From NCBI RefSeq assembly GCF_029626035.1, contig NZ_JARUBE010000003.1, positions 5,332,001 to 5,396,000 on the forward strand: a stretch of 64,000 nt of DNA, written 5' to 3'. This stretch comes from Micromonospora sp. WMMD980 (GTDB taxonomy: Bacteria > Actinomycetota > Actinomycetes > Mycobacteriales > Micromonosporaceae). Below the pieces are notes generated by a model, which was not told the origin of the DNA, searched no databases, and was given only the letters and a program-made list of their open reading frames with translations. The position numbers were made by a program, and so were the translations under genes. Shown here in pieces: positions 29,266 to 33,331 of the stretch; within the stretch, counting starts at the first letter, position 1, and every line of letters begins with the position of its first letter.

Positions 29266-29655
29266 TCAGCCCTCCCGGCTGCGCAGCGTGGCGATGGTCG
29301 AGCCGGCCAGCGTGAGCAGGCAGTCGGGCAGCAGCCCATCGGCGGCCGCCGCGCCGAACAGCGCCTCACCGGTGTCGATGTCGTCGTTGGCGTACGCGCT
29401 GACGAAGCGGGCCACCCAGCGGGTGTCGTAGTCGGCCTGGTCGATGCCGGGGAAGTCGAGCGCGGCGGCGCCCCCGGGGGCGTCGTCGCCGAGCATCGTG
29501 GCGGCCAGGCACCACGCCACCCCGTACGCCCCGGCCAGCCCGGAACGGCCCACGACCGCGTCGAAGGCGCCGACGACGCCGGCGCCGTCGCCGGCCAGCG
29601 CCGAACGGAGCACGGCCGTCGCGTCGTCGAGCGTCTGCTCTGCGTCGTCGGTCAC
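29266..29655 (-). CDS. conserved hypothetical all-helical protein
   Basis: 129 residues from GTG (TDDAEQTLDDATAVL). Mostly helical, Ala/Asp/Leu-rich, without signal or membrane segment. A longer upstream frame exists but has no coding character. DTRWVARFVSAYANDDIDTG is the most distinctive stretch. It follows the DUF2786 gene on the same strand 33 bases upstream of it, so the two are probably cotranscribed. Function not recognised. Confidence 0.6.
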   Translation of the reverse strand: MTDDAEQTLDDATAVLRSALAGDGAGVVGAFDAVVGRSGLAGAYGVAWCLAATMLGDDAPGGAAALDFPGIDQADYDTRWVARFVSAYANDDIDTGEALFGAAAADGLLPDCLLTLAGSTIATLRSREG

Positions 29656-29821
29656 CTGCGGAAGAGTAGCGGCGAGGGTCAAGCGGTGACCCGCAACCGG
29701 GCCCACGATCACCCACAGTGATATCCGCAGTCGGCGTCCCGACGGAGCCAGGTCCACAGTCCCACGTGCCGCGCGGGCACGCTAATGTGCGCAGCGGACC
29801 TTCGCCGGAGGAAGGACGACC

Positions 29822-31156
29822 ATGCTTGGAAATCGCACGTCGCGCGCGGCCCTGTCCACGGCCTGCGCGGTGCTCCTGCTCGCCACCAGCGCCTGCGGGA
29901 GCGACGAGCCGAAGGACGCGGGCACCACCCAGGTCCGCCTCTACGGCACCGACGGCAACATGCAGAACTCCTTCGCAGCGGAGCTCAAGGACCGGGCGAG
30001 TCTGATCAACGGCATGAAGGGCACCACCCCGCTCACGCCGCTGCCGGAGAGCTTCAAGGAACGGCTACGCACCGTAGATCCGAAGTTGAACGACTTCCTC
30101 TATGCCGCCGAGTCGTACGACGCCGTGGTGATCAGCGCGCTGGCGACCCAGCTCGCCGGCACCACCGCGCCACGCGAGATCGCCCAGCAGATCGTCGGGG
30201 TGACCGCCGGCGGCCAGCGCTGCGACGAGGTAACGGCCTGCCTCCAGCTCGCCCGCGCCGGTCAGGACCTGGAATACCGGGGCGTGTCGCTGACCCGGGC
30301 CGGCTTCACCGACACCGGCGAGCCGGCGACCGCGAGCTACGGCACGTTGCACTTCGACAACCAGCAGCTCGACGACGGGAAGACCGAGTTCGTCGGCGCG
30401 GGCGAGGAGGCGGGTGCGAGCAGCAAGGCCCCGCCGCGCGGCCGCAAGACCCGCGGGAAGGCGAAGGACGCGCCGCTGGTGATGGGCGGCCTGCTGCCGA
30501 AGACCGGTGACCTGGCGTTGGCGTACCCGCCGATGGCCGCCGCGGTCAGGCTCGCGCTCAACGAGATCAACGCCGCCGGCGGGGTGCTCGGCGAGCCGGT
30601 GAAGTTCATCGAGGGCGACGACGGCACCAACCCGGCGGTGGCCAAGGCGACGGTGGCCGGGCACGTCGCCCAGGGGGTTTCGATCATCATCGGCGCCGGC
30701 GCGTCGGGCATCTCCCGGGCGGTGCTGCCGGACGTGGTGGCCGCCGGGCGGATCCTCTTCTCCCCGTCCAACACCGACGCCGGGCTGAGCGCTGTCGACG
30801 ACAAGGGCCTCTACTTCCGCACCGCGCCGCCGGACAGCCTCCAGGGCCGCGCGCTGGCCGACGTGATGCTGCGGGACGGGCCGCGCAAGATTGTGATCCT
30901 GGCCCGCAAGGACTCCTACGGCGAGGGCCTCCAGGAGAACGTCCGGGCCGAACTGGAGAAGGCGGGGGTCGGCGCGGACCGGCTCAAGCTGCTCACCTAC
31001 GCCCCGCCGGAAGACCCGAAGACTCCGGTCGACTTCGGCGGCATCGCCCAGGAGATCAAGAGCTTCGGCCCGGAGGCGGTGCTGGTCATCGGTTTCGGTG
31101 AGTCGGCCGGGGCGATCACCGCGCTGGCCGACGCCGGGGTGCGGATCAGGGGCTGA
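29822..31156 (+). CDS. branched-chain-type substrate-binding lipoprotein, circularly permuted
   Basis: 444 residues with ribosome-binding site GGAGGAAGGA. Signal peptide and lipobox (LLLATSAC). Residues about 38-190 match the C-terminal third of LivJ-type type-1 periplasmic binding proteins (VRLYGTDGNMQNSF; FLYAAESYDAVVISALA; CLQLARAGQDLEYRGVS). After a Gly/Lys/Arg linker (about 195-218) comes what is normally the N-terminal two thirds (LVMGGLLPKTGDLALAYPP; INAAGGVLGEPVKFIEGDDG; IIIGAGASGISRAVLPDVV; DKGLYFRTAPPDSLQGRALA), ending at ALADAGVRIRG, the point where a normal protein would run on into the first block. No permease or ATPase genes are adjacent. Confidence 0.85.
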   Translation: MLGNRTSRAALSTACAVLLLATSACGSDEPKDAGTTQVRLYGTDGNMQNSFAAELKDRASLINGMKGTTPLTPLPESFKERLRTVDPKLNDFLYAAESYDAVVISALATQLAGTTAPREIAQQIVGVTAGGQRCDEVTACLQLARAGQDLEYRGVSLTRAGFTDTGEPATASYGTLHFDNQQLDDGKTEFVGAGEEAGASSKAPPRGRKTRGKAKDAPLVMGGLLPKTGDLALAYPPMAAAVRLALNEINAAGGVLGEPVKFIEGDDGTNPAVAKATVAGHVAQGVSIIIGAGASGISRAVLPDVVAAGRILFSPSNTDAGLSAVDDKGLYFRTAPPDSLQGRALADVMLRDGPRKIVILARKDSYGEGLQENVRAELEKAGVGADRLKLLTYAPPEDPKTPVDFGGIAQEIKSFGPEAVLVIGFGESAGAITALADAGVRIRG

Positions 31157-32870: not shown

Positions 32871-33034
32871 CGCTGTCCCTTCGTCGCGGCGGTGGCGCGC
32901 GGGGTCTCCGCCGCGCCGGGCCGGCCGCTCGCTCGATCCTGGATGCGACCCTATGCAGGGCGGGTCCGTCGGGCATGCGTGGGGGCCGGCCGGACGGGGT
33001 AAAGACCGCCGTCAACGCCGAAGGAAGGAACGAG

Positions 33035-33331
33035 ATGAGCCAGGCACCGGAGAGCGCGCAGGGCACCGAGACGGTCGAGACGGTCGAGACGCGCGGTGAC
33101 GAGCGGGTGGACCTGCTTCGTGCCGACACCAACAACGACGGCAAGACCGACGTGTGGGTGGTGGACACCGACGGCGACGGCAAGGCCGACCTGTTCCAGT
33201 TCGACACCGACGGCGACGGCAAGGTGGACATCACCATGGTCGACATCGACGAGGACGGCACGCCGGACGAGGTGGTCGACGGCGACGGCGGCCTGCCCCC
33301 CGAGGAAACCGCGCCCACCGTCCAGGTCTGA
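33035..33331 (+). CDS. small acidic protein with Asp-rich calcium-type repeats
   Basis: 98 residues, ribosome-binding site AAGGAAGGAA. After an acidic Glu/Thr-rich start it carries four tandem repeats of 12-13 residues with the pattern D-T-D-G-D-G-K-x-D (ADTNNDGKTD, DTDGDGKAD, DTDGDGKVD, DIDEDGTPD), like the calcium loops of EF-hand, dockerin or thrombospondin type-3 repeats. It has no signal peptide or membrane helix, so it would stay in the cytoplasm unless exported by another route. It could bind Ca2+ or Mg2+ as a buffer or sensor. Family not named with confidence. Confidence 0.7.
   Translation: MSQAPESAQGTETVETVETRGDERVDLLRADTNNDGKTDVWVVDTDGDGKADLFQFDTDGDGKVDITMVDIDEDGTPDEVVDGDGGLPPEETAPTVQV

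Follow-up and report, generated by a model that had tools for sequence, protein, structure and literature searches.

The gene at 29822..31156 (+) in a 64 kb stretch of DNA from Micromonospora sp. WMMD980 (64,000 nucleotides of contig NZ_JARUBE010000003.1, below called the window) encodes a relative of the LivJ/LivK-type (HAAT) binding proteins in which the two parts of the chain have changed places. We put at roughly 0.78 the probability that the product is a circularly permuted predicted lipoprotein whose C-terminal block comes first, whose blocks close into one two-lobed amino-acid-binding fold, which likely arose by tandem duplication, fusion and trimming, and which in Micromonospora likely has no importer of its own. 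Permuted forms have likely arisen at least four separate times in the phylum Actinomycetota, three of them at one point of the chain.

Exchanged block order and predicted fold

The open reading frame (ORF) starts with ATG and encodes 444 amino acids plus the stop. Residues 36-179 (C-block, 29927..30358, +) correspond to the final third of standard LivJ-type proteins and now stand first, and residues 217-440 (N-block, 30470..31141, +) are the first two thirds and now stand second. Permuted relatives gave one full-length match to the window protein, whereas standard relatives matched in two swapped pieces; in the standard protein of G058, for example, a match to query residues 198-440 was followed directly by one to residues 34-185. 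Hidden Markov models (HMMs) of the blocks found both in each of 76 selected relatives (46 permuted, 30 standard). In a set of 360 proteins, made up of the best 120 from each of three database searches with the window protein, a Modestobacter permuted protein and a standard protein as queries, the order was C-N in 238, N-C in 119, C-N-N in two and N-C-N-C in one. The C-N-N proteins P0147 and P0181 are permuted, with the beginning of the N-block repeated in part. A sequence-only reading of the window had proposed that the C-terminal third precedes the N-terminal two thirds, and this is borne out by the block matches and the HMMs. Since the protein does not follow the order of the HAAT/LivJ family (N-terminal two thirds, then C-terminal third), it is a permuted HAAT variant and no standard member.

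The anatomy is that of a natural permutant: both blocks are homologous to a standard parent and stand in exchanged order, the old termini are joined, and the new termini lie at one former internal loop. The join is a linker of residues 180-216 (30359..30469, +), which is ancestral C-tail to about residue 194 and then a Lys/Arg/Gly-rich spacer; the Lys/Arg/Gly segment claimed by the earlier reading was located at residues 206-215. Behind the N-block, a tail of four residues (RIRG) and the stop codon (31142..31156, +) form the new C-terminal end, which lies at the cut loop. Most permuted rows of the alignment end 17 residues past a conserved Glu (Glu427 in the window protein), and among 51 standard rows, of which 15 lack the Glu motif, 28 reach the Asp at the start of the other block 24 residues after this Glu. 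The chain therefore stops where the first block would begin, exactly as had been claimed.

The same block order was present in 36/36 sampled genomes of the genus, several of them single-contig. An assembly join within the gene, the pitfall that the sequence-only reading had pointed out, is therefore rejected. One copy (G014:C76:12842-14178, in a draft assembly) is interrupted, with two overlapping matches and one TGA, and its pieces still have the same order. The window genome holds a single copy of the permuted gene, and the next-best matches are 23-30% identical.

AlphaFold predicted one confident fold for the permuted chain (predicted local distance difference test score, pLDDT, 89.3; predicted template modelling score, pTM, 0.88). 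A sequential structure aligner matched only about the last 230 residues of this model to LivJ-type chains; alignment began only from residue 206 in 50 structure-match rows and no full-length match was among the matches listed, whereas a standard relative aligned over its whole chain to LivJ-type structures. The missing full-length match does not show a new fold. Ser295 (codon 30704..30706, +), Thr318 (30773..30775, +) and Tyr366 (30917..30919, +) of the N-block and Asp44 (29951..29953, +) of the C-block are invariant in 89 alignment rows and align with S79, T102, Y150 and D226 of Atu2422 (3ipc). We take these Ser, Thr, Tyr and Asp/Glu positions to contact the ligand. Direct profile comparison of the C-block with solved structures was marginal (3ipc, E 0.015), and its identity is therefore drawn from the standard relatives. 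Together, the confident single model and the invariant ligand-site residues of both blocks lend support to the earlier proposal of a permuted but foldable two-lobe protein.

Upstream, a purine-rich stretch resembling a ribosome-binding site (GGAGGAAGGA, 29807..29816, +; read by eye) ends 5 nt before the ORF. The signal peptide and lipobox up to Cys25 (29822..29896, +) predict a lipoprotein by the general lipobox rule, and A24, C25 and G26 are kept in at least 90% of the 89 rows. The protein scored 111.7 bits against PF13458 (Peripla_BP_6), above the curated cut-off of 31.7, and the match covers residues 221-440 only, at profile positions 4-215 of 343. The best NCBIfam model, PRK15404, gave 65.4, far below its cut-off of 477. 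Permutation accounts for such partial-domain annotation of these genes.

Recurrence and proposed origin

The permuted proteins were divided into g1 (families f1, f16 and f13), g2 (f39 and f49), g3 (f41) and g4 (f68, f81 and f122), where f1 is Micromonosporaceae, f16 is Geodermatophilaceae and f41 groups with a named Nocardioidaceae row; g4 lies outside the class of Micromonospora and was seen in 5 of 346 sampled genomes. With both blocks together, the approximately unbiased (AU) test rejected joining g2 with g3 (p 4.4e-4), g1 with g3 (2.7e-128) and g1 with g2 (7.5e-7), and the two pairs tested for g4 were also rejected by AU (0.0049 with g1, 9.1e-7 with g2); these p-values are optimistic, as the groups were named after tree inspection. 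One clade for all permuted rows was rejected by the N-block alone (p 1.8e-8) and by the C-block alone (0.0021). A single origin of all permuted forms is thus rejected by the tree tests, within the limits set by post hoc groups and variable support for g1.

Three of the groups share one cut point. Chains end 17 residues past the conserved Glu in 28/46 rows of g1, 4/6 of g2 and 11/14 of g3. The five g4 proteins extend 20-22 residues further, beyond the next helix, and their other block begins correspondingly later; because of this later cut, g4 is separate on anatomy alone. The g3 rows lie within a 100/100 clade that includes standard f41 rows, and permuted and standard N-blocks of f41 are up to 74% identical. 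A private Micromonosporaceae event is rejected, since the same kind of permutation recurs in other families across the phylum. Inside g1, the linker past the old C-terminus shares 2.27 of 8 residues between the f1 and f16 forms, compared with 0.97 +/- 0.34 in column shuffles (0/2000 as high), and sliding the comparison by one place gave 1.51 or 0.5 identities. This likeness beyond chance favours one event for both forms.

We propose that a standard gene was duplicated in tandem and fused in frame as N-C-N-C, and that trimming would then have removed the leading N-block, which followed the signal peptide, and the trailing C-block. The new amino end would tether the protein by its other lobe, with a flexible linker spanning the old termini. 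Closure on the ligand would thus be unchanged. Read by eye, the linkers start like the group's own C-tail and finish like its own leader. One relative, P0246 (759 amino acids), is a head-to-tail fusion of two near-identical copies in the order N-C-N-C with the last block incomplete. Neighbouring tandem copies were seen at L247 (permuted and standard) and L248 (two standard). The linker ends and the fused relative strengthen the tandem-duplication origin that had been suggested at the outset. At L247 (G1239) a divergent permuted gene (ORF from about 1056) is followed directly and on the same strand by a standard one (from about 2487), and the pair is flanked by an ANTAR regulator gene on one side and a LivF/G-type gene on the other.

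Loci with and without an importer

Standard genes typically stand beside an importer: all four liv-type genes (two ABC_tran and two BPD_transp_2 by Pfam) adjoin in 24 of 30 loci drawn, mostly facing the binding-protein gene, and the other flank often holds gltD, pyruvate kinase and an ANTAR response regulator. Permuted genes of f16, f13, f39, f49 and f41 also adjoin livFGMH-type genes, and many retain the ANTAR flank. All four liv-type genes were present at 8/11 permuted loci of f16/f13 and 20/23 of g2/g3, and at least one at 10/11 and 23/23, respectively. The permuted protein thus occupies the place of the standard one, and in Geodermatophilaceae, f41, f39 and f49 it would pass its ligand to the adjoining importer. 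Of the 245 f41 genomes sampled, at least 16 have the permuted form, each with that single match only at E<=1e-30. At L160:11026-12390 (-), a CarboxypepD_reg domain at residues 67-153 precedes BPD_transp_2 in a LivH-type permease and could be an outside docking domain.

The Micromonosporaceae gene is different. A tblastn search of the 64 kb window at E<=1e-3 gave no stretch resembling LivF, LivG, LivM or LivH, in agreement with the earlier remark that no transporter genes are adjacent. Of 45 permuted loci of the family with gene calls, 43 show no liv-type gene and two have one nearby. Twenty-seven hand-picked f1 genomes were compared with a Geodermatophilaceae LivM as reference: in the 17 that hold the permuted protein only, the best match reaches 31-36% identity and none is close, whereas identity is 51-59% in the 10 that have a standard protein. 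The window genome has three LivM matches at E<=1e-15, 31-33% identical to the reference and none of them close. We suggest that in Micromonosporaceae the gene moved and the importer was lost, so that the orphan would serve another permease or report its ligand. From the lack of a transporter the sequence-only reading had gone on to a sensor or receptor; the lack of the family's usual livFGMH-type importer stands, and the step to a sensor is only partly supported, as an orphan without this importer could act either as a sensor or with a shared importer.

Across the 45 loci, the upstream neighbour is a protein without a Pfam family in 26 and a 4HBT thioesterase in six, and downstream neighbours include an enoyl-CoA hydratase in 20 and an acidic repeat protein in 19. 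In the window, the ORF at 29269-29757 (-) encodes 163 residues without a Pfam or NCBIfam match and belongs to the cluster that stands directly upstream and divergent in the 26 loci. The ORF at 32975-33328 (+) encodes an acidic protein with DTDGDGK-type repeats and no Pfam match; its cluster, also seen at L163:4888-5142 (-) and L128:9938-10222 (+), stands directly downstream on the same strand in 19/45.

A broader hypothesis, to which we give an even chance, is that permutation has a hot spot in actinobacterial LivK-type proteins, namely the loop ahead of the ligand-Asp strand, cut at least three times and once more nearby. The permuted protein would have replaced the standard one beside the importer since these LivHM importers would accept or even prefer an anchor on the other lobe, and Micromonosporaceae would then have made one form an importer-free receptor.

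Alternatives and comparison with known systems

Several observations weigh against the picture given above. The closure of both blocks into a single fold is predicted from model confidence. In a later tree g4 was not a single clade and L254 stood apart, and L254 may be a fifth permutation event. Permuted rows of Micromonosporaceae and Geodermatophilaceae grouped with support of 72/39, 23/36 and 93/82 in three trees, and in another free tree f1 joined standard rows of f8 (97/87), although the tree that keeps the permuted rows together is 0.55 log units better than the free tree with f1 and f8 joined. The fused protein P0246 comes from one 36 kb contig (source ena) and may have been created by assembly. 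The liv-type genes score above Pfam but below NCBIfam cut-offs for LivF/G/M/H, and the substrate may thus be something other than a branched-chain amino acid. Both forms occur together in five f1 genomes (G065, G074, G103, G122 and G082), where the importer goes with the standard protein, and in two of f16 (G398 and G559). In g4, L256 has no recognised importer gene and L254 has another arrangement, and the two f1 permuted loci with a nearby liv-type gene depart from the orphan pattern. L155 (G368), where a Geodermatophilaceae genome holds its second permuted copy, has no adjoining importer gene, so that orphans also occur outside Micromonosporaceae.

The scatter of permuted forms could also come from one ancient permutation with repeated reversion to the standard order. 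The cut loop is common to three groups within about one residue, and change counts on the trees cannot separate gain from loss; against this, g4 is cut later, the linkers are not alike among groups and, judged by eye, look like the C-tail and leader of the group in question, the listed solved relatives matched in standard order, so that several reversions would be needed, and g3 sits with closely similar standard rows. We therefore regard this scenario as unlikely. Horizontal transfer of permuted genes would likewise lower the number of origins, and the patchy distribution inside f41, f49 and other classes is consistent with it, as is the support inside g1 that varies among trees. A transfer moves the whole gene, however, and transferred permuted genes would still cluster, whereas a single permuted clade was rejected for each block alone, and every pair among g1-g3 with both blocks together; fewer origins by this route appear quite improbable.

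For the Micromonosporaceae orphan, a role as receptor for a sensor or regulator instead of a transport protein is possible, with the chances somewhat against it. No cognate importer was found in the window genome and no importer genes in the window, the gene is kept in all 36 sampled genomes of the genus, and AmiC, a regulator with the type-1 binding fold, is among the structure matches of the permuted model. On the other hand, the steady neighbours at the 45 loci include no recognised kinase, chemoreceptor or regulator, and the protein could serve permeases among the 14 BPD_transp_2 matches of the window genome. Decay of the gene or an assembly artefact would fit the broken copy in G014 and is highly improbable, since conservation refutes it: 35 of the 36 genomes, single-contig ones included, hold an intact gene, the ligand-site residues are invariant, and the ratio of nonsynonymous to synonymous substitution (dN/dS) was below 1 (0.10-0.54 for both blocks in six pairs), which indicates constraint.

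Most natural circular permutations go back to one event each, long ago. Of the present protein, living bacteria still carry the standard, the permuted and, in one case, the fused double-length form, and permuted and standard N-blocks reach 74% identity within one family, which makes the steps of a permutation directly testable. The permuted loci that keep an importer further suggest that the membrane tether of a binding protein may switch lobes while the importer stays.

Compared with LivJ/LivK and other HAAT proteins (Peripla_BP_6; 4n0q, 3ip5/3ipc Atu2422, 3td9 LivK), the window protein has homologous blocks, the same ligand-site residues and a similar predicted fold, and many permuted relatives are likewise next to livFGMH-type genes. 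It differs in block order, in an anchor that precedes another strand and in a linker that joins the old termini, and LivF/G/H/M genes do not adjoin it in the Micromonospora window. The closest standard relatives (L172-L176, 40-48% identical in each block) are actinobacterial substrate-binding proteins with livFGMH-type and ANTAR genes, such as P0241 of Lolliginicoccus (L172), and unlike the window protein these have the standard order and an importer. Engineered ribose-binding protein permutants (7QSP, 7QSQ) are man-made permuted halves of the same type-1 fold (PMC10601554, PMC9815098), whereas the window protein is natural, full-length and kept across a family. No natural permuted LivJ-type protein was described among the matches listed in open-licence literature, with most subscription journals outside, including passages of PMC10927120, PMC2395249, PMC2096629 and PMC10601554 and the abstract of PMC9815098; the recurrence of permutation in this family is new here. 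The permutation-by-duplication model (PMC2096629) runs through duplication, fusion, a new start and a new stop, and P0246 resembles its fused step. In the present family this course would have been taken recurrently, three times at one loop, with the signal peptide retained in front.
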